From positions 1 through 64,000 of the forward strand of contig CALAHN010000135.1 in the NCBI GenBank assembly GCA_937891825.1: a stretch of 64,000 nt of DNA, in the 5' to 3' direction. The DNA comes from an uncultured Alphaproteobacteria bacterium (GTDB taxonomy: Bacteria > Pseudomonadota > Alphaproteobacteria > Bin95). The notes under the pieces are model-generated. The model worked only from the letters and a program-made list of their open reading frames with translations, was not told where the DNA came from and did no database searches. The translations under genes were made by a program, and so were the position numbers. Below, one piece after another: positions 6,030 through 64,000 of the stretch (position 1 is the first letter of the stretch; every line of letters begins with the position of its first letter).

Positions 6030-6887
6030 TCAGCCTAGGAACTCCGTCACCGCGTCGATGAAGACGTCGTTCTGATCGCCGGCCACCATGTGGCCCGCGG
6101 CGGCGACGTCGACGAAGCGGCCGTCGGGCGCCAGATCGACGAATTCGGCGGCGGTTTCCGGCGTCACCAGATCCGACTTGCCGCCCCGGACCAGCAGCGC
6201 CGGCATGGTGAGGCGCCGCGTCGCAGCTTTCATGCGGACGGGGTCGCGATCTTCCATGCGGACGTCGATATCTGTCATGAAACCGGGGTCCCAGTGCCAG
6301 TACCAGCGGCCGTCAGCCCGCAACCTCAGGTTTTTCTCAAGGCCCGCCGTCGATTTCGGCCGGGGCCGGTCCGGGAGGTACGAGGCGACATAGTCCGCCG
6401 CGTCATCAAGGTCCGCAAACCCGTCCAGCATGCGCTTCTGCATGAAGCCTACAATACGCTCGACGCCGGCGCGCATCACCGTCGGCGTGATATCGACCAG
6501 CACGACCGCGCTCGCGACGGCTTCCGGCTTCGGCGCTTCGCCGGCGCCCAGAAGCGTCGCGAGACCGCCGAGCGAGGCGCCGACCACAGCCGGCGGCGCC
6601 CTGAAAGTCGCCGCGACCGCGCGCATGTCGCGCGCAAAATGGTTGATCCGGTAGACGTGATCCGCCGCCCAGTCGCTCTCGCCGTGGCCGCGCTGATCGA
6701 TCGCCACCGCCCGCCAGCCCCGCGCCGCGAAGGTTCGCGCCGCGCCGCCCCAGGCATGGCGCGTCTGCCCGCCGCCATGCAGCAGCAAGGCCGGCCGCCC
6801 GGCCGGATCGCCATAGGCGTCGCCGCGGAGGACGACGCCGTCCGCCATCGTGAAGGCGACGGGCGCCGGGGCCGCGCCGCCGGTCAT
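6030..6887 (-). CDS. Alpha/beta fold hydrolase
   Basis: A 285-residue soluble hydrolase. The oxyanion-hole HGGGQTRHAW, the nucleophile elbow GASLGG (Ser), an acid in the GGKSDLVTPE segment and the C-terminal AAGHMVAGD (His) make a complete catalytic triad with a cap domain between. The family includes esterases, epoxide hydrolases and C-C hydrolases; the substrate cannot be told. It overlaps the upstream Ldh-type gene by 4 bases (ATGA), so the two are one operon and may act on successive intermediates. Confidence 0.88.
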   Translation of the reverse strand: MTGGAAPAPVAFTMADGVVLRGDAYGDPAGRPALLLHGGGQTRHAWGGAARTFAARGWRAVAIDQRGHGESDWAADHVYRINHFARDMRAVAATFRAPPAVVGASLGGLATLLGAGEAPKPEAVASAVVLVDITPTVMRAGVERIVGFMQKRMLDGFADLDDAADYVASYLPDRPRPKSTAGLEKNLRLRADGRWYWHWDPGFMTDIDVRMEDRDPVRMKAATRRLTMPALLVRGGKSDLVTPETAAEFVDLAPDGRFVDVAAAGHMVAGDQNDVFIDAVTEFLG

Positions 6888-7942
6888 GACCGGGGTTCCG
6901 GCAGGGCGACGCCAAGCTCGGCCGCGACCGGCGTCAGTGCCGGCAGGATGGAGGGATGCAGCGCGAGGCCATCGGCGAGCCCGGCGCGTTTGCGCGCCAG
7001 GGCGCTATCCCCCGGCATGCGGGCGCCCGCCGCCCCCGGCGCGGAGCGCGCGGCGCGGCAGGCGCGGGCGAGCCAGCCGGTCTCACGTTCGAAGGCCGCA
7101 CGCCCGCCAAACGCTTCCGGGTCGATGCATTGCACATAGACCGACGCGCCCCACTGGCTGGGGTCGTCGGCCCGGCCGAAACCGCCGAGTCCGGAGGTCA
7201 ACGCTTCCGCCATCAGGCCAAGGCCGAAGCCCTTGTGGCCCCGATCCAGCCCGCCGAGCGGCAGGAAGGCGCCCGGCGGATCGGCGAACAGCACGTCCGG
7301 ATCGTTCGTCGCCTTGCCGTCGGCGCCGATCAGCCAGTCGCCCGGCAGGCGCCCGCCTTCGCCTTTCGTGCGCATGGCGAGGCCCATGGTGGCGCCCGAG
7401 GTCGAGATGTCGATCAACACCGGATCGCCGTCGGTCGGGTAGCCGAAGGCGATCGGGTTCGGGGTGAACAACGGCTCGGTCGCGCCAAAGGGCGCGACGG
7501 CTTTCACCGACGGATCGGATGAGACCAGCATCACCGCAAGGCCCTGGTCCGTCGCGACCGGCAGGAAGGCCGCGAGGCAGGCAATATGGTGCGACCGCCG
7601 GATCGCGATGGCGGCAAGGCCATGCAGCTTCGCGCGCCGGGCCGCCTCATCGACCGCCTTCCACGCCAGCCAGACGCCGGAGCGATAGCCCCCGTCCCAG
7701 ACCGTCGCCACGGTCCGGTCGGAAATGACATCGACGTCGCCGTCGGCCGGCATGGTTCCAGCCTTTAGGTCCTTCAGATATCCGGCCGCCTGGGCGAGCC
7801 CGTGGGTGTCGTGGCCCATCAGGTCGGCTTCGACCAGATAGCGGGCGACGATCGCCGAGCGGTCGTGCGGCATGCCTGCTTCTACGAACAGCGCCGCCGC
7901 GAAGCATTCCAGCGTCGCGGCGTCATAGCGGACGTCAGACAT
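6884..7942 (-). CDS. Ldh family NAD(P)-dependent malate/lactate-type dehydrogenase
   Basis: A 352-residue member of the type-2 malate/L-lactate dehydrogenase family (also ureidoglycolate and delta1-piperideine-2-carboxylate reductases), which use NAD(P) in a non-Rossmann fold. Typical segments are DLMGHDTHGL, RRSHHIACLA, TPNPIAFGYP and HKGFGLGLMAEALTSGL. The frame extends to 8146 but the extra 68 residues overlap the divergent esterase gene and look non-coding; the ATG at 7942 begins MSDVRYDAATLE as expected. Substrate is probably a 2-oxo/2-hydroxy acid. It is co-transcribed with the alpha/beta hydrolase. Confidence 0.88.
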   Translation of the reverse strand: MSDVRYDAATLECFAAALFVEAGMPHDRSAIVARYLVEADLMGHDTHGLAQAAGYLKDLKAGTMPADGDVDVISDRTVATVWDGGYRSGVWLAWKAVDEAARRAKLHGLAAIAIRRSHHIACLAAFLPVATDQGLAVMLVSSDPSVKAVAPFGATEPLFTPNPIAFGYPTDGDPVLIDISTSGATMGLAMRTKGEGGRLPGDWLIGADGKATNDPDVLFADPPGAFLPLGGLDRGHKGFGLGLMAEALTSGLGGFGRADDPSQWGASVYVQCIDPEAFGGRAAFERETGWLARACRAARSAPGAAGARMPGDSALARKRAGLADGLALHPSILPALTPVAAELGVALPEPRS

Positions 7943-53504: not shown

Positions 53505-55781
53505 ATGTCACAGCCGAAGGGCCGTATCGAAGACCAGAGGTTCATCACCGGCAAAGGCCGATTTACCGCCGATCTTGTCCGGCGCGGTCAGGCCCATGGC
53601 GTCGTCCTGCGTTCGCCCCATGCTCATGCGGATATCATCGGCATCGATGCCGATGACGCCCGCGCCGCGCCCGGCGTTCTCGCCGTCATCACGGCCGCCG
53701 ATCTGGCCAAGGCCGGCGTCGGCCCGATCCAGAACGTTTCGACCATTCCAAGCGACCCACCGCTGGTCCGTCCGCCCCGGCCGGTGCTTGCGGGCGAGCG
53801 TGTGCGCCACCAGGGCGAGCCGGTCGCCTTCATCGTCGCGGAAACCCTGGCGGCCGCCCGGGATGCGGCGGACCTCGTGCTGGTCGACTATCGGGAACGC
53901 CCGGCGCTGATCGACGCTGGCCTCGCCCAGGCGCCGGACGCGCCGCAGATCTGGGACCAGGCCCCCGGCAACCGGATGTGCGTTTTCCAGGCCGGCGACC
54001 GGGCTGCGGCGGAAGCCGCGCTCGCCGCGGCCGATCATGTGCTGGACCTGACCGTCGACAATCACCGGGTTTCCGCCCTGCCGCTCGAGCCGCGCGCCGC
54101 CATCGGCGAATGGGACGCAGAGACGGGCTATGCCCTGACGCTGACCGGCCAGGGCGTGCACGGCATCAAGAACGCCCTCCTCCCGACGCTCGGCGTCGAG
54201 AAGACCATGCTCCGCGTCCTCGCTCACGATGTCGGCGGCGGCTTCGGCGCCAAGAATTTCGCCTATCCGGAATGGGCGCTCGTGCTGCATGCGGCGAAGG
54301 CGCTTGGCCGCCCGGTCAAATGGGTCGCGGAACGGACCGAGGATGTGACCGGCGGCGCCCACGGCCGCGCCGTCAAATCCCGCGCCCGGCTGGGGCTGAC
54401 CAGGGACGGCCGCTTCACGGCGCTGCTCGCCGAAATGACCGCCGACCTGGGCGCCCACCTCTCGACCGGCGCGCCCGGCAGCGGCACGGTTTCCGTCACC
54501 CGCTCGATCCACGGCATTTATGCGATCCCTAATGTCTGCATGATCGCGACCGGCGTCTTCACCAACACCGCGCCCGTCGACGCCTACCGGGGCGCGGGCA
54601 AGCCCGAAGGCAATTACCTGATGGAGCGGCTGGTCGACGAAGCCGCTCGGCAGTTCGGCTTCGACCCGGTGGCGCTCCGCCTGCAGAACGCCATCGCCGA
54701 CTTCCCCTATAAGACTGCGCTTGGCTTCGTCGTCGACAGCGGCCAGATCGTCGAGACCATCAAGGCCGCCGACGCCCTGGCCGACCGGCCCGGCTTCGCG
54801 GAGCGGCGCGCCGCCTCCGCGGCCAGGGGCATGCTCCGCGGCCAGGGCATGGCCTGCTTCCTGGAAAGCGCCCGGGGCGCGGCTTCGGAAGGCGCCGAAA
54901 TCCGCTTCGCGGACGATGGCATGATCGAGGTCAGAACCGGCACCGAAAGCAACGGCCAGGGCCACGAGACGACCTTCTCCGACCTCGTCGCCGCAAGGCT
55001 CGGCGCGCCGCTCGGCGAGATCCGCTATATCCAGGCCGACACGGCCGAAACCCGCATGGGCCACGGCCATGGCGGGGCGCGGTCGATGCATATGGGCGGC
55101 ACCGCCATCGTCGGCGCGATCGACGCCGCCCTCGCCAAGGGCCAGGGCGTCGCCGCCCGGCTGCTGCAGGCCGCGCCCGAGACCGTGTCGTTCAAGGACG
55201 GAAGCTTCGTCGCCAGCGATGGACGGAGCGTCGCGCTATCGGATGTCGCGGCGGCCGCCCGCCAGCCGGAATTCGGCCTCGAAACCGGCCTCGACAGCTT
55301 CTGGCAATGGGACGATGCGCCGATCACCTGGCCCGCCGGCGCCCATGTCGCCGAGGTCGAAATCGACCCCGAGACCGGACATGTAGAGCTGCTCTCCTAT
55401 GCCGGCGTCGACGATTACGGCGCGATCCTGAACGGCCAGTTGATCGAGGGCCAGGTGCATGGCGGCCTTGCCCAGGGCATCGGCCAGGCCATGGGCGAAC
55501 AGATCGTCTATGACGGGAACGGCCAGTGCCTCTCTGCGACGCTGATGGACTATGCGGCGCCGCTTGCCCGCAGCCTGCCGAACTTCGACATCCGCTTCGA
55601 AGGCCAGCCGACCGCCGCCAACCCGCTTGGCGTCAAGGGCAGCGGCCAGGCCGGCGCCATCGCCGGCGCGCAGACCGTGATGAACGCCGTCCGGGACGCG
55701 CTCGCCTCGACCGGGGCCGGCGCCATCGACATGCCCGCGACGCCGGAAAAGGTCTGGCGCGCCTTGAACGCCGCACGCTAG
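53505..55781 (+). CDS. Stand-alone CoxL-like molybdopterin-binding subunit (xanthine dehydrogenase family)
   Basis: A 758-residue large subunit of the molybdenum hydroxylase family (CO dehydrogenase/aldehyde oxidase/xanthine dehydrogenase). Typical parts: RSPHAHADI, GGGFGAKNF, AYRGAGKPEGNYLMERL and NPLGVKGSGQAGAI near the C-terminus with the catalytic Glu region. The CO-dehydrogenase-specific VAYRCSFR loop is absent, so a purine, aldehyde or N-heterocycle hydroxylase is likelier. The FAD and [2Fe-2S] subunit genes are not adjacent, which is odd for this family. An LLM monooxygenase gene follows by 20 bases. Confidence 0.88.
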   Translation: MSQPKGRIEDQRFITGKGRFTADLVRRGQAHGVVLRSPHAHADIIGIDADDARAAPGVLAVITAADLAKAGVGPIQNVSTIPSDPPLVRPPRPVLAGERVRHQGEPVAFIVAETLAAARDAADLVLVDYRERPALIDAGLAQAPDAPQIWDQAPGNRMCVFQAGDRAAAEAALAAADHVLDLTVDNHRVSALPLEPRAAIGEWDAETGYALTLTGQGVHGIKNALLPTLGVEKTMLRVLAHDVGGGFGAKNFAYPEWALVLHAAKALGRPVKWVAERTEDVTGGAHGRAVKSRARLGLTRDGRFTALLAEMTADLGAHLSTGAPGSGTVSVTRSIHGIYAIPNVCMIATGVFTNTAPVDAYRGAGKPEGNYLMERLVDEAARQFGFDPVALRLQNAIADFPYKTALGFVVDSGQIVETIKAADALADRPGFAERRAASAARGMLRGQGMACFLESARGAASEGAEIRFADDGMIEVRTGTESNGQGHETTFSDLVAARLGAPLGEIRYIQADTAETRMGHGHGGARSMHMGGTAIVGAIDAALAKGQGVAARLLQAAPETVSFKDGSFVASDGRSVALSDVAAAARQPEFGLETGLDSFWQWDDAPITWPAGAHVAEVEIDPETGHVELLSYAGVDDYGAILNGQLIEGQVHGGLAQGIGQAMGEQIVYDGNGQCLSATLMDYAAPLARSLPNFDIRFEGQPTAANPLGVKGSGQAGAIAGAQTVMNAVRDALASTGAGAIDMPATPEKVWRALNAAR

Positions 55782-55801
55782 CATTCGGGGCAAGGGGCAT
55801 C

Positions 55802-57127
55802 ATGGCCAAGAAGCAACTCCGTCTCGGCGCGTTCATGCGGCCGGTGTCGATCCATACCGCCGCATGGCGCTATCCGGGCGGCACGCCGGACGCCAACTTC
55901 AATCTCCGGGCCCTGATCGCCTATGCGCAAAAGCTGGAGGAAGGCCTGTTCGACGCTTTCTTCATGGCAGACCATCTGGCGGTGCTGAACATGCCGATGG
56001 ATGCGCTGAAGCGCAGCGCGACTGCGACCAGCTTCGATCCGCTGACGCTGCTGCCGGCGCTGGCGATGCACACCCGGCATCTGGGCCTGATCGCGACGGC
56101 CTCCACCACGTTCGAGCCGCCCTACATGATCGCCCGGCGCTTCGCCTCGCTCGACCATATCTCGGGCGGGCGGGCGGGCTGGAACATCGTCACCACCTCC
56201 AACCCCGACGCCGCGCTGAATTTCGGCATGACCGATCACATGGATCACGCCGAGCGTTACCGCCGCGCCCGTGAGTTCTATGAGGTCGTGACCGGCCTCT
56301 GGGACAGTTGGGACGACGACGCCTTCATCCGGGACGTCGAGAGCGGCGTGTTCTTCGATCCCGCCAAGCTGCACGTGCTGGACCACAAGGGCGACTTCTT
56401 CCAGGTGCGCGGGCCGCTGAACATCGCCCGGCCGGTGCAGGGCTGGCCGCTGATCGTGCAGGCCGGCGCCTCCGACGACGGCCGCCAGCTCGCGGCCGAA
56501 ACCGCCGAGATGGTCTTCTCCTCCGGCCGCACGATCCAGGACGCCCAGGCGCTCTACGCCGATATCAAGGGCCGCGCCGCCAAGGCCGGGCGCAACCCGG
56601 ACCACATCAAGATCCTGCCGGGCGCCCTCGTCGTCGTCGGCCGGACGGACGCGGAGGCTCAAGAGAAGCGCGCCCTGCTCGACAGCCTCGTGCATTACGA
56701 CAGCGGCATCGCCTCGCTCTCGATCGCCCTTGGCTCCGACGCATCCGGCTTCGATCCCGACCAGCCCTTGCCCGCCGACATCCCCGACACCAACGCCAGC
56801 AAGAGCGGGCGCGAACGCGTCCTGAAGCTCGCGGCTGAAGAAAACCTGACGGTGCGCCAACTGGCCGGCCGCTTCGGCGGCTACGCCGGCCACGCCCTGG
56901 TCGGCACGGCAGAGGCTATCGCCGACGAGATGCAGGCCTGGCTCGACGGCGAGGCCTCCGACGGTTTCAACGTGATGTTCCCCTACCTCCCCGCCGGCAT
57001 CGACGATTTCGTCGATCAGGTCGTGCCCGCCCTCCAACGCCGCGGCATCTTCCGCACCCGCTACGAAGGTCAAACCCTCCGCGAAAACCTGGGCCTTCCG
57101 CGGCCGGAGAGCCGATATCGGGGGTAG
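55802..57127 (+). CDS. LLM-class flavin-dependent monooxygenase (NtaA/DszA/DmoA type)
   Basis: A 441-residue luciferase-like monooxygenase. The N-terminal LGAFMRPVSIHTAAWRYPGG and the segments FFMADHLAVL, TASTTFEPPYMIARRFASLDHISGGRAGWNIVTTS and QAGASDDGRQLAAETAEMVF are typical of the nitrilotriacetate/dibenzothiophene-sulfone/alkanesulfonate monooxygenase group, which uses FMNH2 from a partner reductase. Start ATG 55802 is 20 bases after the CoxL-like stop, so they form one unit. It lies just upstream of the TPP-riboswitch operon that carries LuxC- and LuxE-like genes. Substrate unknown. Confidence 0.88.
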   Translation: MAKKQLRLGAFMRPVSIHTAAWRYPGGTPDANFNLRALIAYAQKLEEGLFDAFFMADHLAVLNMPMDALKRSATATSFDPLTLLPALAMHTRHLGLIATASTTFEPPYMIARRFASLDHISGGRAGWNIVTTSNPDAALNFGMTDHMDHAERYRRAREFYEVVTGLWDSWDDDAFIRDVESGVFFDPAKLHVLDHKGDFFQVRGPLNIARPVQGWPLIVQAGASDDGRQLAAETAEMVFSSGRTIQDAQALYADIKGRAAKAGRNPDHIKILPGALVVVGRTDAEAQEKRALLDSLVHYDSGIASLSIALGSDASGFDPDQPLPADIPDTNASKSGRERVLKLAAEENLTVRQLAGRFGGYAGHALVGTAEAIADEMQAWLDGEASDGFNVMFPYLPAGIDDFVDQVVPALQRRGIFRTRYEGQTLRENLGLPRPESRYRG

Positions 57128-57158: not shown

Positions 57159-57187
57159 TTGACGTGAGGGGCCGCAGACCCTAGCGT
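57159..57187 (+). promoter_or_regulatory. Proposed promoter of the TPP-riboswitch operon
   Basis: TTGACG (57159-57164), a 17-base spacer and TAGCGT (57182-57187); the start of transcription would be near 57194, just before the riboswitch. The -35 is strong, the -10 weak. It makes the downstream operon independent of the LLM gene. Confidence 0.45.
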
Positions 57188-57195
57188 CTGTGCGC

Positions 57196-57312
57196 TATCC
57201 ATAGGGGAGCCCTGCTTGAGGGGCTGAGATGTCGATTGGGGGCCGGGATGGCCGGCCCCGGCGCGACGACCCTTTGAACCTGAACCGGATCACGCCGGCG
57301 TAGGGAATGGGA
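57196..57312 (+). ncRNA. TPP riboswitch (THI element)
   Basis: Conserved TPP-aptamer parts are in order: GGGGAGCCC near 57204, GGCTGAGAT near 57222 (the pyrimidine-sensing CUGAGA), a long variable P3 extension with GC-rich stem, then ACCCTTTGAACCTGA and GATCACGCCGGCGTAGGGAA near 57269-57306. P1 closes with ATCC (57197-57200) and GGAT (57309-57312). It binds thiamine pyrophosphate and normally turns expression off. It is upstream of the LuxE-like gene and is the only recognised riboswitch in the window. Confidence 0.93.
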
Positions 57313-57321
57313 TGTGCTGGC

Positions 57322-57383
57322 GCTCCGAAAAAGCTCCGTTCCCCCCATCGCCGACGCCGCGCGCCGACCGGGCGCCGGAGCGG
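57322..57383 (+). promoter_or_regulatory. Likely expression platform: tandem anti-Shine-Dalgarno elements
   Basis: GCTCCG occurs twice (57322-57327 and 57333-57338). It is complementary to CGGAGC at 57376-57381, which is the ribosome-binding site of the next gene (start 57388). TPP binding could favour this pairing and block translation. No T-run is seen, so transcriptional termination is less likely. This is a prediction from base pairing alone. Confidence 0.4.
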
Positions 57384-57387
57384 ACCC

Positions 57388-58485
57388 ATGGACCAGGAGC
57401 ACATCATCGCCGAGCTTTTGGCCTTCATCGAGGCGGACCCGCCCAGCGACCCGGCCGCGGCCGACGCGGCGTTCGAAGCGCTCGCGCTCAAGGTCTTCGC
57501 CTATCAGTTCCAGCATAATGCCCCTTTCGCCAAGTTCGCCCGCGCGCGCGGCAAGACCCCGCGCACGGTGAAGCGCTGGGCCGATATCCCGGCTGTGCCG
57601 ATCAACGCCTTCAAGTCCCTCGACCTCACCTGCCGGCCGCCCGAGGACTGCGTCGCGACCTTCATGACCAGCGGCACCACCCTGGGCGGCGTCCGCGGCA
57701 AGAGCTATCACGCCACGCTTAGCGTCTATGACGCCTCGATGCGCCGGAACTTCGCCCAGCGCTTCATGGGCGGCCAGGAGCGGATGCCGCTCGGCGTGCT
57801 GTTCCCGACGCCGGCGCTTTTGCCGAATTCCTCCCTCGCCCATTATCTGGACCTCGCGCGCCAGCATTTCGGCAGCCCTGGCAGCCGCCACCTGATCGGG
57901 CCGGACGGGATCGACATCGATGGCCTTTGCCAGGACCTGGAACGGGCCGAAGCGTCAAGCGCGCCCTATGGTCTGATCGGCGCCAGCTTCAGCCTGGTCC
58001 ACGCCCTTGACGCGCTGGCGACGCGCGGGCGGCGCTTCCGCCTGCCCGAGGGCAGTCGCATCCTCGATACCGGCGGCTTCAAGGGCCAGTCGCGCGAGCT
58101 GGAGCCGGATGCCTTTTATGACGCGCTCGCCATGACCTTCGGCGTGCCCCGGCGCCGCTGCATCAATATGTACGGCATGACCGAACTCAGCACGCAGTTC
58201 TATGACGACGGCAACGCCGCATGCCCGTCGGTCAAGTCTGGCCCGCACTGGATCCGCGCCCGCGTCGTCGATCCCCTGACCGGCCAGTCAGTGCCGGACG
58301 GAGCGACCGGGGTGCTGGCGCACACCGATCTCGCCCATTTCAACATCGTCGCGACCATACTGACCGAGGATGCCGGCATCGCGGTCGACGGCGGCTTCCT
58401 GCTGCTTGGCCGGGCGGCGGGCGCGGCGGCGGCCGGATGTTCCATGGCGGTCGACGCCTTCCTGAAAGCCGCGAGCGCGGCGTGA
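57388..58485 (+). CDS. LuxE-like acyl-protein synthetase under TPP control
   Basis: A 365-residue member of the LuxE family (PF04443), related to ANL adenylating enzymes. ATP-binding TSGTT is at 94-98, and the YGMTE motif at 262-266. Near the C-terminus GCSMAVDAF holds Cys351, the position of the acyl-carrying cysteine in LuxE. LuxE activates a carboxylic acid as acyl-AMP and passes the acyl group through its Cys to LuxC. First gene of the TPP operon, start ATG 57388; an in-frame ATG at 57307 lies within the aptamer and is unlikely. GTGA overlap with the LuxC-like gene. Its acid is unknown; TPP control argues against fatty acids for luminescence. Confidence 0.88.
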   Translation: MDQEHIIAELLAFIEADPPSDPAAADAAFEALALKVFAYQFQHNAPFAKFARARGKTPRTVKRWADIPAVPINAFKSLDLTCRPPEDCVATFMTSGTTLGGVRGKSYHATLSVYDASMRRNFAQRFMGGQERMPLGVLFPTPALLPNSSLAHYLDLARQHFGSPGSRHLIGPDGIDIDGLCQDLERAEASSAPYGLIGASFSLVHALDALATRGRRFRLPEGSRILDTGGFKGQSRELEPDAFYDALAMTFGVPRRRCINMYGMTELSTQFYDDGNAACPSVKSGPHWIRARVVDPLTGQSVPDGATGVLAHTDLAHFNIVATILTEDAGIAVDGGFLLLGRAAGAAAAGCSMAVDAFLKAASAA

Positions 58486-59933
58486 CCGAGCACCCGATCC
58501 TCGCGGCACGCCTGCCCGGCATGAACGCCGATGCGCTTGGCCACGTGACCCAGACCTATGGACCGGCGGACGCGCCAGTGTCGATCGCGCTGCCCAAGCT
58601 GGACGCGGCGGCGATCGCGGCGGTCGCGGCGAGCGTCAAGACCGCGACGCGCCGAACTCTCAAGACCTATCCGGTCGCCCGAATTGTCGACACGCTCGAT
58701 GCGGCGATCGCCCGGCTGCTCGACCGCGCGCACCCGATCCGCCGCCAGATGGACCGGCTGCTGCCGCGCCTCACCGGCTATGACGCGGACATGGTCGGCC
58801 TGGGGTTGACGCGCTACCTCATGACCTTCCGCAAGCCCGAACTGCTGCGGTTCCTTGCCGAGGATTTCCCCAATCCCGCGATCCTCGACGGGTTCCAGCC
58901 GCTGCCCAAGGGCGGATACGGCCGGGCTTATGGCGCGGACCTGACGGCGCATATCTGGGCGGGCAACGTGCCTGGCCTGCCGCTCTGGAGCCTCGCCGCG
59001 GGGCTGCTCGCGAAATCCGGCGCCGTCGGCAAGGTCCCGACGGCGGAGCCGCTGTTCGCAGGCCTGTTCGTCGACGCCCTGGCGGAGGTCGACCCTGCGC
59101 TCGCCGAGTGCATCGCGGTCGTCTGGTGGCAAGGCGGCGAGGAAGCGCCCGAGCGCGCGCTGCTCGAGGCCGCCGAACTGGCGCTCGCCTACGGCGGCAA
59201 TGCGGCGCTGGCGGCGATCCGGGCGCGCACGCCGATCACGACGCGCTTCCTCGCCTACGGCCACAAGGTCAGCTTCGCCATGATCGGCCGGGAGGCCTTG
59301 GACGCCGCGAAGACCGCCGAAACCGCGCGGGCCGCCGCCTATGACGTGATGCGCTACGACCAGCAGGGCTGCTTCGCGCCCCACGTGATCTTCGTCGAGG
59401 CTGGCGGCCGCTCCAGCCCGGAACGCTTTGCCGGGCATCTTGCCCAGGAGTTGCAAGCGTTCGAGCGCACATATCCGCGCCGCGCCCTCAGCCTCGGCGA
59501 AGCGGCCGACGTCGCGGCCTGGCGGGCAGCGGCGGAGACCAGCCCGGGCGGCGCCGTGATCGGCGATCCGGCGGGCCTCTGGACGGTCGCCTTCGACGAT
59601 GGGACGGACGGGCAGTTCAGCCCAAGCAGCTTGAACCGCGCCATCCGGGTGGTCGCGGTCCAGCGCCTGGAAGATGTGGCGGCCAGGGTCGCGCCCTATC
59701 GCCGCCTGCTCCAGACGGCGGGCCTCGCATGCGCGCCGGACCGGCTGTTCGCCTTGAGCGCCGAGCTCGGGCTGGCGGGCGTGCGCCGGGTCGCCGCCCT
59801 CGGCGACATGACCGCGCCCGAGGCCGGATGGCACCATGACGGCCGCTTCAACATTCTCGATCTCGTGGAAATCACGGAGATCGACGGCCGCGCGCTGCCG
59901 ACGGCGGACAGGCTGGCGGCCTATGTCGACTGA
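58482..59933 (+). CDS. LuxC-like acyl reductase under TPP control
   Basis: A 483-residue protein of the LuxC family (acyl-CoA/acyl-protein reductase, aldehyde-dehydrogenase fold). HIWAGNVPGLPLWSL (about 157-171) is a family segment and Cys297 in DQQGCFAPH is the thioester-forming catalytic residue. LuxC reduces an acyl thioester to the aldehyde with NADPH. The GTG at 58482 overlaps the LuxE-like stop (GTGA). It overlaps the ABC ATPase gene by 11 bases. The LuxE-LuxC pair thus turns a carboxylate into an aldehyde; no luxAB or luxD is in the operon. Confidence 0.88.
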   Translation: MTEHPILAARLPGMNADALGHVTQTYGPADAPVSIALPKLDAAAIAAVAASVKTATRRTLKTYPVARIVDTLDAAIARLLDRAHPIRRQMDRLLPRLTGYDADMVGLGLTRYLMTFRKPELLRFLAEDFPNPAILDGFQPLPKGGYGRAYGADLTAHIWAGNVPGLPLWSLAAGLLAKSGAVGKVPTAEPLFAGLFVDALAEVDPALAECIAVVWWQGGEEAPERALLEAAELALAYGGNAALAAIRARTPITTRFLAYGHKVSFAMIGREALDAAKTAETARAAAYDVMRYDQQGCFAPHVIFVEAGGRSSPERFAGHLAQELQAFERTYPRRALSLGEAADVAAWRAAAETSPGGAVIGDPAGLWTVAFDDGTDGQFSPSSLNRAIRVVAVQRLEDVAARVAPYRRLLQTAGLACAPDRLFALSAELGLAGVRRVAALGDMTAPEAGWHHDGRFNILDLVEITEIDGRALPTADRLAAYVD

Positions 59934-60693
59934 CGCCCAGCCATTCCTGGACCTGGACGGCGTCGCCTATGCCTATGGCGACGACCCGCCGACCGTGACG
60001 GGCGTCGACCTCCGCGTGCCGGCGGGCGCCTTTCATTGCCTGGTCGGGCGGAGCGGCTCCGGCAAGACGACCCTGTTGAAGCTGGCGGCGGGCTTGTTGC
60101 GCCCAGGCGCCGGCGCCGCGCGCATCCAGGGCGCGCCGATCGACGGGCCGGCGCCCGCCGTCGGCTTCGTCTTTCAGACGCCGTCGCTGCTGGAATGGCG
60201 AACGGTCTTGGACAATGTGCTGCTGCCGATCTCCCTGAAGCGCCAGGTCACGGCGGCGGACCGCGCGGCCGCCCATGCGGCGCTGGAGCGGATCGGCATC
60301 GGCGGCCATGCCCAGCGCTATCCGGGGCAATTGTCCGGCGGCCAGCAAAGCCGGACGGCGCTGGCCCGGGCGCTGATCACCGAGCCGCCGGCGCTGTTGA
60401 TGGACGAGCCCTTCGCCGCGCTCGACGCGATCACCCGCGAGGGACTCCAGGACGATCTGCTGCGCCTCGCCGAAGACCGCCGGACCACCGTGCTGTTCGT
60501 CACCCACGACATCGCCGAGGCTGTCTACCTGGGCGACCATGTCTCCGTCATGGAGCGGGGCCGGATCGCGTTCGACATGCCTGTCGCGCTCGACCGGCCG
60601 CGCGCCGTGGACATCCGTTACGACCCAGGCTTCAACGCCCTTTGCCGCGACATCCGCCGCCAGATGGCCGCCGCCAGCCGGATGGCGGCATGA
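59923..60693 (+). CDS. ABC transporter ATP-binding protein (ThiZ/SsuB-like)
   Basis: A 256-residue ABC ATPase: Walker A GRSGSGKTT (42-50), signature LSGGQQSRTAL, Walker B LLMDEPFAALD and switch His in VTHDIAE. The protein belongs to the nitrate/taurine/thiamine-precursor import group (Tau/Ssu/ThiZ). Start ATG 59923 is within the LuxC-like end. It overlaps the permease by 4 bases (ATGA). TPP control points to thiamine-precursor uptake. Confidence 0.92.
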   Translation: MSTDAQPFLDLDGVAYAYGDDPPTVTGVDLRVPAGAFHCLVGRSGSGKTTLLKLAAGLLRPGAGAARIQGAPIDGPAPAVGFVFQTPSLLEWRTVLDNVLLPISLKRQVTAADRAAAHAALERIGIGGHAQRYPGQLSGGQQSRTALARALITEPPALLMDEPFAALDAITREGLQDDLLRLAEDRRTTVLFVTHDIAEAVYLGDHVSVMERGRIAFDMPVALDRPRAVDIRYDPGFNALCRDIRRQMAAASRMAA

Positions 60694-61451
60694 GCGGGAT
60701 GCGCCTCATATCGGTTCTGCTGTTCGTGCTGCTGATGCTGGCGTGGGAAGTCGGCGTCCGCCTGAGCGGCGCGTCGGCGATGGTGTTTCCGGCCCCCATG
60801 GCGATCGCGGCGACGCTTTGGGACGGGCTCGTCACAGGCTTCCTCTGGCCGCATATCTGGGTGACGGCTGCCGAAACCCTCGCCGGTTTCGCGCTTGGCT
60901 GCGTCATCGGGTTCGCGGCGGGCGTGCTGCTGGCGGAAGTCGAGGTCCTTCGGCGGCTGGTCTGGCCCTATGTGCTGGCGAGCCAGGTGGTGCCCAAGCT
61001 GGCGCTCGGGCCGATCTTCATCATCTGGTTCGGCTTCGGCATGACATCGACCATCGTCATTACCGCGCTGATCTGCTTCTTCCCGCTTCTGGAAAACACC
61101 CTGACCGGCCTCGCCGCCGCGACGCCGGAGAAGCGGGACCTGTTCCGGATGCTGCGGGCGAGCCGGATGCAGACGCTGCTTCGCCTGAAAATTCCCTCCG
61201 GCCTGCCTGTCATTCTGGCAGGCGTCCGGGTCGCGATCGTGTTGGCGCTGGTCGGCGCGGTCGTCGGCGAGTTCATCGGCGGCGACGCCGGTCTCGGCGC
61301 CAGCATCATCGCGGCCCAGGGCATGATGGACTCGACCCTGATGTTTGCGCTTTTCATCGTCATCACCCTGATGGGCATGGCCTTCTATCACTGCACGGTT
61401 GTACTGGAGCGCTGGCTGCTGCGCGGCTGGCATAAAGGAGATACCCAATGA
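60690..61451 (+). CDS. ABC transporter permease (ThiX/SsuC-like)
   Basis: A 253-residue inner-membrane permease with about six helices. The EAA-type segment coupling to the ATPase is seen in ATPEKRDLFRMLRASRMQTLLRLKIPSGLP. It overlaps both neighbours (ATGA at each end), so it forms the importer with the ATPase before and the binding protein after it. The family carries sulfonates, nitrate or HMP-type pyrimidines; TPP control favours the last. Confidence 0.9.
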   Translation: MSGMRLISVLLFVLLMLAWEVGVRLSGASAMVFPAPMAIAATLWDGLVTGFLWPHIWVTAAETLAGFALGCVIGFAAGVLLAEVEVLRRLVWPYVLASQVVPKLALGPIFIIWFGFGMTSTIVITALICFFPLLENTLTGLAAATPEKRDLFRMLRASRMQTLLRLKIPSGLPVILAGVRVAIVLALVGAVVGEFIGGDAGLGASIIAAQGMMDSTLMFALFIVITLMGMAFYHCTVVLERWLLRGWHKGDTQ

Positions 61452-62422
61452 TGCTCAAGGCTTTTACGACGCTCGCGGCGCTTCTGCTGACGGTTTCGAC
61501 GGCGGCGGCCGAGACGCTGGACAAGGTCGCGATCGCAGGCTGGAGCCAGCCGATCAGCGAGATCGCCAATCTGCTGGCCGAGCCGGACAAGGGCTTCTTC
61601 AAGGCCGAAGGCATCGACCTCGGCTATGTGCCAGGGGCAGGCGGCGGCTCCGCCATCGTCAACATGCTGTCGGGCGCGGCGGAGGTGGCGTTCTCCGACC
61701 CGGCCTCGCTGTATCAGGCGCTGGATCAGGGCGAGGATCTGGTCACGATCTACAACATCTATCCCCAGAACGTGTTCAATGTCGTCGCCCCCGTCGGGCG
61801 CGGCATCGCGAAGCCCGAGGACCTTAAGGGGAAGACCATCGGCGTCTACAGCTTGTCGAGCGGCACTCGCCAGAACCTGCAGGTCCTGCTGCATCAGGTG
61901 GGACTGACCGAGGCCGACGTCACGATCAAGGTGACCGGCCTCCTGAACTTCGCGCCGGTCATCCAGGGCCAGGTCGACGCCACGGCGGCGACCGACACCG
62001 GCCTCTTTGTCGGCAAGCTGAAGGGCCTCGGCGAGGTCAACGTCATCGAAGTCAAGGATAGCTTGAACGTGCCGAGCGACATGTTCATCGTCCGCCGCTC
62101 CTACTATGAAGCGAACAAGCCCCTGCTCCGCCGGTTCCTGAAAGCCTACCGGGATAGCGCCGCCTGGATGATCGCCGAACCGGAGGAAGCCGCGACGCTT
62201 GCCGTGACCCGGGCGATCAACGGCCGCGACGCGAGCATCAATCTGGGGATCATCAAGATCCGCAATGCTTCCGCCCAGTCGCCGACCACGGTCGCCAAGG
62301 GTCTCGGCCATTTCGACGTGGATCTTTTGCAGAAGGGCGCCGATACGTTCCTCGCCCTCGGCCTGATCAAGCACCCGCTCGACATGAACGCCGTCGTCAA
62401 ATCCGACCTGCTGCCGGAATAG
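61448..62422 (+). CDS. NMT1/THI5-like periplasmic binding protein (ThiY type)
   Basis: A 324-residue protein with signal peptide ending STAAAE (about residue 21). The NMT1/THI5 fold is seen in DKGFFKAEGIDLGYV, GAAEVAFSDPASLYQAL and LKGKTIGVYSLSSGT. THI5-type proteins bind pyrimidine precursors such as N-formyl-aminopyrimidine in thiamine salvage (ThiY). AAAGGAG precedes the ATG, which overlaps the permease stop by 4 bases. Ligand identity would decide what this operon does. Confidence 0.9.
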   Translation: MMLKAFTTLAALLLTVSTAAAETLDKVAIAGWSQPISEIANLLAEPDKGFFKAEGIDLGYVPGAGGGSAIVNMLSGAAEVAFSDPASLYQALDQGEDLVTIYNIYPQNVFNVVAPVGRGIAKPEDLKGKTIGVYSLSSGTRQNLQVLLHQVGLTEADVTIKVTGLLNFAPVIQGQVDATAATDTGLFVGKLKGLGEVNVIEVKDSLNVPSDMFIVRRSYYEANKPLLRRFLKAYRDSAAWMIAEPEEAATLAVTRAINGRDASINLGIIKIRNASAQSPTTVAKGLGHFDVDLLQKGADTFLALGLIKHPLDMNAVVKSDLLPE

Positions 62423-62431
62423 GCGAACGCC

Positions 62432-63199
62432 ATGGATTTCGCCGGGAAGACGGTTCTCGTAACAGGTGCGAGCCGCGGCATCGGCCGGGCGATCGCGACA
62501 GCCTTCGCCGGCGAAGGCGCGGGCGTCGTCGTCAACTATCTGGCCAATACCGAAGCTGCGGCCGAAACCGTCGCCGCCTGCGAGGCCGCCGGCGGCGACG
62601 CATTCCCCGTGCAGGCCGACGTGACGGACCTGGCCGCGGCGGCCCGGCTGGTCAAGGAGGCGCTCGATCAGTTCGGGCGGATCGATGTTCTGGTGAACAA
62701 CGCCTTCGGCCCCTATCGCTTCGATCCGGAGACGCGCAAACGCCATTGGGAACTGGACTGGAACGACTATCAACGCCAGATCGACGGCTCCGTCAAAGCC
62801 GCCCACGGCCTGATCCAGGCCGTGCTGCCGGGCATGCTGGCGCGGGCCGACGGCGCCATCGTCATGCTCGCGACCGACCTCGTGGCGCGGCCGAGCGTGC
62901 CCTATCATGACTACACGACCGCGAAAGCCGCGCTGATCGGCTATGCGCGCAATCTCGCGGCCGAGACCGGGCCGCTTGGGGTGCGGGTCAATACGGTCGC
63001 GCCCGGCCTGGTCTATCCGACCGACGCCAGCCGGGGCACCAAACAGGCGATGCGCGACGCTATCGCCAGCCAGACGCCCCTGCGGCGGGTCGCGACGCCA
63101 GCGGATATCGCCGGCCCCGTGCTGTTCCTGGCCTCGCCCTGGGCGCGCTTCATGACCGGGCAGACGCTCTATGTCGATGGCGGGCTGGTGATGGCCTGA
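62432..63199 (+). CDS. SDR family oxidoreductase (FabG-like)
   Basis: A 255-residue short-chain dehydrogenase. TGASRGIG binds the cofactor, NNAFG is the structural motif, and the catalytic pair is Tyr and Lys in DYTTAKAA. The residue 13 before the Tyr is Thr (LATDLVA), where most SDRs have Ser. The gene starts 9 bases after the binding protein and closes the TPP operon. In the scheme proposed it would reduce the aldehyde from the LuxC-like enzyme to the alcohol. Confidence 0.9.
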
Positions 63200-63209
63200 T
63201 CGCGGGCGT

Positions 63210-64000
63210 TCAGGCCGCCGCGTCCTTCAAGGCCATGTCGGCCGCCTTCTCGCCGATCATGATCGACGGCGCGTTGGTGTTGCCGGAGATCAACGTCGGC
63301 ATGATCGAGGCGTCGGCGACGCGCAACCCCTCGATGCCATGCACGCGCAGCCGCGAATCCACCACCGCCATCGGGTCCGAGCCCATCTTGCAGGTGCCGA
63401 CCGGGTGATAGGTGGTCTCGCCGACCGCGCGGACCCAGGCGAGCAGATCCTGATCGTTCCTGACCGCCTCGCCCGGCGCGATTTCGGTGATATCGAGACC
63501 CGCCATCGCCGGCGCATGCATCAGCGAGCGCGCGATCCGCACCGCCGCCAGCGTCACCTCGACGTCCAGGGGCGACGACAGGAAATTGAAGCGGATCGCC
63601 GGAGCCATCCCAGCGTCGGCGCTTCTGACATGGATGCTGCCCTTGCTTTCCGGCCGCATGGCGTGGGCATAGCAGGTGAAGCCGCTTTGCTTCGAGAGCT
63701 TGTAGCCCGGCTCATAGAGCATCGGGACCCAGCCGAGCAGCGCGTCCGGCGCGGCGAGGCCATCGCGGGTGCGGACGAAGGCGCGGATCGGGGCTGCCGG
63801 AATGCCCAGCATGCCCTTCCGCTGCGTCGCATAGCGGAGCGCCTGATAGACCAGGCCAAGCCCGCGCGCCTTGTCGTTATAGGTCATGCCCTTGGCGCCG
63901 ACGGCCCAGCGCGTCCTTGGCGCATAATGATCGCGCAGGTTCTCGCCGACGCCGGGCAAGGCATGGCGGACCGCGATGCCGGCCTTGACCAGCCGCTCGG
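63210..64000 (-). CDS. GMC family oxidoreductase, C-terminal part (5' end beyond the window)
   Basis: A partial gene: the frame is open to the window edge at 64000, so the FAD-binding N-terminus is missing. The visible 263 residues hold [36 protein letters not shown] (catalytic His) and the final [21 protein letters not shown], as in choline-dehydrogenase-like alcohol oxidoreductases. It converges with the SDR gene and is not part of the TPP operon. Substrate is an alcohol of unknown type. Confidence 0.92.

Follow-up and report, generated by a model that had tools for sequence, protein, structure and literature searches.

Close to the end of a 64,000-nucleotide stretch of DNA from an uncultured alphaproteobacterium (contig CALAHN010000135.1; the whole stretch is called the window here) lies an operon of six genes behind a thiamine pyrophosphate (TPP) riboswitch aptamer. 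It encodes homologues of LuxE and LuxC, the ATPase, permease and substrate-binding protein (SBP) of an ATP-binding cassette (ABC) importer, and a short-chain dehydrogenase/reductase (SDR) (Table 1). We consider it probable that the operon serves a TPP-repressed salvage of the pyrimidine half of thiamine, in which an acid is imported, reduced to hydroxymethylpyrimidine (HMP) and passed into biosynthesis at ThiD. The fuller proposal, which we favour a little less firmly, is that of an undescribed vitamin B1 branch in Pseudomonadota and Bacillota, combining TPP-riboswitch-controlled uptake with LuxE/LuxC/SDR reduction of 4-amino-2-methylpyrimidine-5-carboxylate to HMP, this acid being a real environmental vitamer.

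In the proposed route the importer, either an NMT1-type ABC system or an NCS2 permease, would admit an oxidised pyrimidine. This would most likely be 4-amino-2-methylpyrimidine-5-carboxylate, a thiamine metabolite from rat urine to judge by a reference title (Neal and Pearson 1964, cited in PMC7780320). The LuxE homologue would use ATP to convert the acid to acyl-AMP and load the acyl group onto its own C-terminal cysteine; the LuxC homologue would take it onto an active-site cysteine and reduce it to the aldehyde at the expense of NAD(P)H, and the SDR would turn this aldehyde into HMP. ThiD would then form HMP diphosphate (HMP-PP), to be coupled by ThiE to thiazole phosphate. Which acid is used, which way the reactions run, what cofactors they take and that TPP represses the operon are all inferred.

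Computation establishes the operon, the TPP aptamer upstream of it, its linkage to thiD and thiE and the integrity of its catalytic residues. A first-pass annotation of the window, made from the letters alone, had described a full TPP aptamer followed by six genes, and both descriptions were borne out. The aptamer passed the gathering cut-off of RF00059 over the complete model and was the sole Rfam match within the window. The six open reading frames overlap by 4, 11, 4 and 4 nucleotides, with a 9-nucleotide gap before the SDR gene, exactly as described, and Pfam confirmed each assignment.

The arrangement is conserved. We scanned 84,980 species genomes and obtained 337 relatives of this LuxE; in most of the best 80 of these the order luxE–luxC–ATPase–permease–SBP–SDR is kept. 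Carriers include Azospirillum, Bosea, Methylobacterium, Azorhizobium, Roseovarius, Curvibacter, Limnohabitans and Polaromonas, together with Comamonas, Alcaligenaceae, Pantoea and uncultured alphaproteobacteria. Using a covariance model trained on 21 Rfam-confirmed aptamers, we detected a TPP aptamer immediately before luxE at 77 of these 80 loci, a figure that is not fully independent because 8 or 9 of the training sites come from these loci. One aptamer (L027) is cut by a contig end, and among the three loci with none, one (L061) ends at a contig edge. A simple regular expression was insensitive, recovering only about 50 of the 80; Rfam's own cut-off was reached in five of nine loci that it had missed. 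In a separately drawn, partly overlapping set, the covariance model found the aptamer at all 14 loci and the Rfam cut-off was passed at 9. The element also precedes the lactobacillus, Niallia and Priestia plasmid loci, and was found at none of seven distant LuxE homologues (26–29% identity). The association of aptamer and operon is far beyond chance. The first-pass annotation had suggested looking for this gene set beside TPP riboswitches elsewhere, and it is there, in Pseudomonadota and Bacillota alike; the outcome it had named as fatal to its idea, the set occurring in other genomes without thiamine control, was examined and did not overturn it.

Prevalence is low: an even draw of 398 Pseudomonadota genomes, the window genome counted, contained 6 carriers. 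In the LuxE tree all betaproteobacterial rows fall in one clade (100/99), and Pantoea nests within the Azospirillum/Bosea group (99/90), suggesting horizontal transfer. Tandem TPP aptamers precede the operon in a Comamonadaceae metagenome-assembled genome (L039:7675-7775 and 7801-7903) and in Niallia taxi (L184:6673-6781 and 6860-6969).

The importer points towards a thiamine pyrimidine. The SBP has the NMT1/THI5 fold (PF09084), and its sequence matches include THI5 and ThiY. Its AlphaFold2 model (pLDDT 91.2) ranked the FAMP (formylaminopyrimidine) complex of ThiY first in Foldseek (3ix1, TM 0.86), followed by a thiamin-bound structure (4nmy, TM 0.84), several sulfonate binders and then THI5 structures; the fold is nearer to ThiY than to SsuA/TauA, at about 25–28% sequence identity to a canonical ThiY (L136). 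The ATPase scored 183.9 bits against the SsuB-type NCBIfam model, under its cut-off of 395. The operon resembles the ThiXYZ (ThiY)/YlmB/TenA salvage system in having a TPP-regulated NMT1/THI5-type SBP and, as proposed, ABC import of a thiamine pyrimidine, with a product predicted to enter at ThiD. It differs in the low identity of its SBP to ThiY and in its chemistry: deformylation and deamination in the known system, ATP-dependent carboxylate reduction in the one proposed here.

In Bacillota (lactobacillus plasmids and Niallia) the ABC importer is exchanged for an NCS2 nucleobase permease (PF00860, 243–256 bits; pbuX model, 325 bits versus a cut-off of 414), whereas Priestia keeps the NMT1-type ABC importer, as do most Pseudomonadota. 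A 10 kb plasmid of Lactiplantibacillus plantarum (L181, whole) and a 21 kb plasmid of L. brevis (L182:2947-7878) share the order TPP–NCS2 permease–luxE–luxC–SDR, and identical protein accessions on the two indicate that the cassette has moved between species. We sought viral contigs carrying the lactobacillus LuxE and found none. These permeases belong to the same family as the NCS2 symporters UraA and PbuX, from which they differ in being TPP-regulated within a luxE–luxC–SDR operon; the window version has no NCS2 gene. In Niallia taxi the order is TPP–TPP–thiW–NCS2–luxE–luxC–SDR. ThiW, annotated as a transporter of thiamine precursors, is assigned to thiazole, so that the pyrimidine is left for the remaining genes of the operon. 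Elsewhere the importer can stand apart from the reductases, as in genome G027, where a second TPP aptamer is followed by the importer alone. In two other genomes whose reductase genes have no adjacent importer (G036 and G045), what stands behind the second TPP site is a Liv-type importer unrelated to it. In G036 (L141:3155-10366, minus strand) the genes behind that site also include an SDR and a protein that weakly resembles haem oxygenases (PF14518, below cut-off) and is possibly TenA-like.

These arrangements bear on a competing account, to which we give a small chance. It keeps the chemistry and changes the source of the acid: the importer would take HMP, aminomethylpyrimidine (AmMP) or FAMP, and luxE–luxC–SDR would rescue acid or aldehyde produced by stray oxidation inside the cell. 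Several lineages that carry the three reductase genes with no adjacent importer would fit such repair, as would the resemblance of the SBP to ThiY, a FAMP binder. However, most loci keep importer and reductases physically linked, and the split-off importer of G027 has a TPP aptamer of its own. The type of transporter also changes around a constant reductase trio, suggesting that what enters the cell is the substrate of the trio itself.

Which half of thiamine is concerned is indicated by the company that the operon keeps. At one locus (L178) a single operon reads TPP aptamer–thiD–luxE–luxC–ATPase–permease–SBP–SDR–thiE, its thiD (TIGR00097, 314 bits versus 205) overlapping luxE by 4 nucleotides and its last gene being a match to thiamine phosphate synthase (PF02581, 134 bits). 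At eight Limnohabitans-type loci thiD faces the operon in convergent orientation, and most of these loci extend to the thiG cluster; in Limnohabitans B9-3, thiD is followed by thiO–thiS–thiG–thiE, thiO and thiS being identified from their translations. No thiC was found in either of the two Limnohabitans genomes searched, and the literature describes Limnohabitans as an auxotroph for the pyrimidine that lacks thiC (PMC12637900). Among 49 distinct carrier genomes, 24 have both thiC and thiG, 17 have thiG without thiC, 8 have neither, and none has thiC without thiG. ThiD is present in every carrier, at full length in all but two, which hold fragments; ThiM occurs in 6 of the 49, and TPK in 1 of 50 genomes searched. 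ThiM is needed to use the free thiazole alcohol, and TPK to use free thiamine. Seven lines of evidence favour the pyrimidine branch: the L178 operon, the Limnohabitans loci, the exchange for NCS2 permeases, the fold of the SBP, the thiC/thiG pattern, the presence of ThiD and the scarcity of ThiM and TPK. The first-pass annotation had proposed that a carboxylated thiamine moiety, such as a pyrimidine or a thiazole acid, is imported and reduced in two steps; this is supported by our computation for the pyrimidine acid and disfavoured for the thiazole acid.

Two further substrates were weighed, both improbable. The first is thiamine acetic acid, that is, thiamine oxidised at its hydroxyethyl group, which would be imported whole and reduced to thiamine. 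The thiamin-bound structure as second-best fold match of the SBP would agree with this, and such a route would suit genomes that lack thiC, thiG and thiM, for example the window genome. Yet TPK, which phosphorylates free thiamine, was missing from 49 of the 50 genomes searched (other thiamine kinases being possible), the 17 thiC-less carriers that keep thiG would have no use for it, and thiD and thiE in the L178 operon would be equally superfluous. The second, which we rate lower again, is 4-methylthiazole-5-acetate or a similar thiazole acid, whose reduction would give the thiazole alcohol (HET). It could supply thiazole to the thiG-less, thiM-less window genome, given an unknown HET kinase. 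It is disfavoured because ThiM, which HET needs, is missing in about 43 of the 49 carriers and because no carrier combines thiC with the absence of thiG; moreover, the Niallia operon already has thiW, taken as a thiazole importer, and the L178 operon has thiD.

The catalytic residues of the enzymes are intact. Although the LuxE and LuxC homologues pass the Pfam gathering cut-offs, they fall far short of the NCBIfam equivalog cut-offs for the luminescence proteins (65.7 versus 550 bits and 83.4 versus 750 bits, respectively), and by sequence they are true superfamily members remote from those proteins. Their matches in PDB 7xc6 are chain E for LuxE (E 1.7e-27) and chain A for LuxC (E 4e-32). 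In profile alignments with these chains, Cys351 of the LuxE homologue falls on the cysteine of KGCSL, and Cys297 of the LuxC homologue (YDQQGC) on that of YDQQAC. The SGTT motif and Cys351 of LuxE are invariant in 81 sequences, and Cys297 of LuxC in 79. The SDR conforms to the classical Tyr-x-x-x-Lys plus Ser/Thr pattern: all 77 sequences have Tyr161 and Lys165, and the catalytic Ser position, 148, is occupied by Ser (48 sequences) or Thr (29). These catalytic residues are also kept in the lactobacillus proteins. The model fold of the LuxE homologue is nearest to PaaK-type aryl-acid ligases, and its matches include the phenazine-biosynthesis structures 3l2k and 3hgv, adenylating enzymes that we take to be EhpF.

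Two known systems offer comparisons. With the LuxC–LuxE fatty acid reductase (7xc6) the operon shares homology of both subunits, adjacency of the genes and the alignment of both catalytic cysteines. Unlike the bioluminescence system, it has luxE directly followed by luxC, no luxD or luxAB, scores below the equivalog cut-offs, a TPP aptamer, an additional SDR and a proposed heteroaromatic substrate. EhpF, from griseoluteic acid phenazine biosynthesis, likewise resembles LuxE and adenylates a heteroaromatic acid, and EhpG acts as its LuxC-like reductase partner; unlike the window operon, that pair belongs to secondary metabolism and is not known to have TPP control or an importer. That the operon is an ordinary fatty- or aryl-aldehyde pathway placed by chance under a TPP riboswitch is the least likely explanation of all: public plasmid records do label the two genes long-chain fatty acid–CoA ligase and acyl-CoA reductase, and their nearest solved sequence relatives are fatty acid reductase subunits, but the equivalog scores, the near-universal aptamer within the clade, absent at distant LuxE homologues, and the PaaK-type fold all argue against it. 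Some distant LuxE homologues (L172 and L174–L177) lie in open frames of about 820–830 amino acids that have a LuxC-like gene close by and lack a TPP aptamer; they are best classed as a different LuxE/LuxC-type system.

Several observations weigh against salvage of an imported pyrimidine acid. Two loci (L009 and L035) lack the aptamer, and about eight alphaproteobacterial loci, as well as Pantoea dispersa, have luxE–luxC–SDR with no adjacent importer. The thiamine-related compounds covered by the aquatic surveys consulted (PMC10881298, PMC12637900) do not include the acid. Within one family of 201 genomes, thiC is present in 13 of 17 carriers and in 118 of 184 non-carriers (Fisher p 0.43). Carriers are therefore not enriched for thiC loss, and we rejected the idea that the operon is a general replacement for thiC; since it does not replace thiC, it is better seen as an optional salvage route. 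Finally, in the window genome, which lacks thiG and thiM, HMP alone would not complete thiamine.

This last point concerns a genome that is 99.97% complete, its gene content being taken from family searches. The genome and its congeners lack thiC, thiG and thiM and keep thiD and thiE, so that a source of thiazole is needed. A Thi4-type source was rejected for the window genome, as only Rossmann-domain noise was found. All five congeners have a second TPP site before a Liv-type (Peripla_BP_6) ABC importer (L133:8713-8811, minus strand, equivalent to G000:C28:38712-38810; L134, L135, L137 and L138), which is a candidate for the import of thiazole or thiamine. In G011, a congener that lacks luxE, there is instead a TPP operon of a TauD-family dioxygenase, an ATPase, a permease and a canonical ThiY-type SBP (L136:4670-8263, minus strand), which looks like the replacement of one pyrimidine route by another.

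As for the mode of control, two copies of GCTCCG, at 57322 and 57333, can pair with CGGAGC at the site of the likely Shine-Dalgarno sequence of luxE (57376-57381), making translational control of luxE by sequestration of that site plausible, with the switching itself inferred. No intrinsic terminator was found in the operon leader, and its folding did not differ significantly from that of shuffled sequence (z -0.47); leader folding was accordingly dropped as proof of a switch. Upstream of the operon (window positions 53505-57127) lie genes for a CoxL-like molybdenum hydroxylase, recognised by inspection, and an NtaA/DmoA-type FMN monooxygenase; downstream (63210-63998) is a convergent gene for a GMC oxidoreductase.

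Table 1. The TPP-riboswitch operon and its leader (positions are those of the window).
Feature	Position	Strand	Evidence
TPP riboswitch aptamer (RF00059)	57193..57323	+	Rfam full-length match, 67.9 bits (gathering 54.3), E 3.4e-11
Possible translational expression platform	57322..57381	+	Exact complementary 6-mers located by script
LuxE-like acyl-adenylating/acyl-transfer enzyme	57388..58485	+	PF04443, 61.7 bits (gathering 24.9)
LuxC-like acyl-enzyme reductase, predicted NADPH-dependent	58482..59933 (GTG start)	+	PF05893, 282 bits (gathering 21)
ABC transporter ATPase (SsuB/TauB/ThiZ-like)	59923..60693	+	PF00005 (ABC_tran), 99.5 bits
ABC transporter permease (SsuC/TauC/ThiX-like)	60690..61451	+	PF00528 (BPD_transp_1), 87.8 bits
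NMT1/THI5-type periplasmic SBP, apparent signal peptide	61448..62422	+	PF09084, 150.1 bits
SDR, proposed aldehyde-to-alcohol step	62432..63199	+	PF13561 (adh_short_C2), 199.4 bits

The first-pass annotation knew of no such pathway, and we likewise found no description, among the open-access papers searched, of LuxE/LuxC under a TPP riboswitch or of pyrimidine-acid salvage; subscription papers, preprints and RegPrecise lay outside the search, and prior annotation is possible. A large study of RNA regulons sorts TPP targets into biosynthesis and transport genes (PMC3766115). Salvage of the thiamine pyrimidine is itself known; what we have not found linked to such salvage before is the reductive LuxE/LuxC chemistry.

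Among bacteria of aquatic habitats, HMP auxotrophy has been described as the commonest form of thiamine auxotrophy (PMC11452348, PMC12637900). The vitamers covered by the surveys consulted are thiamine, thiamine monophosphate (TMP), HMP, AmMP, FAMP, HET, cHET and bacimethrin (PMC10881298, PMC12637900). If our proposal is true, a pyrimidine-acid route would add an unmeasured vitamer to this list and would help to explain the life of thiC-less organisms such as Limnohabitans. A LuxE/LuxC clade whose current annotation is that of a fatty acid ligase and a reductase would also gain a function, and the operon offers a case in which importer types are exchanged around one enzyme trio, partly on plasmids.

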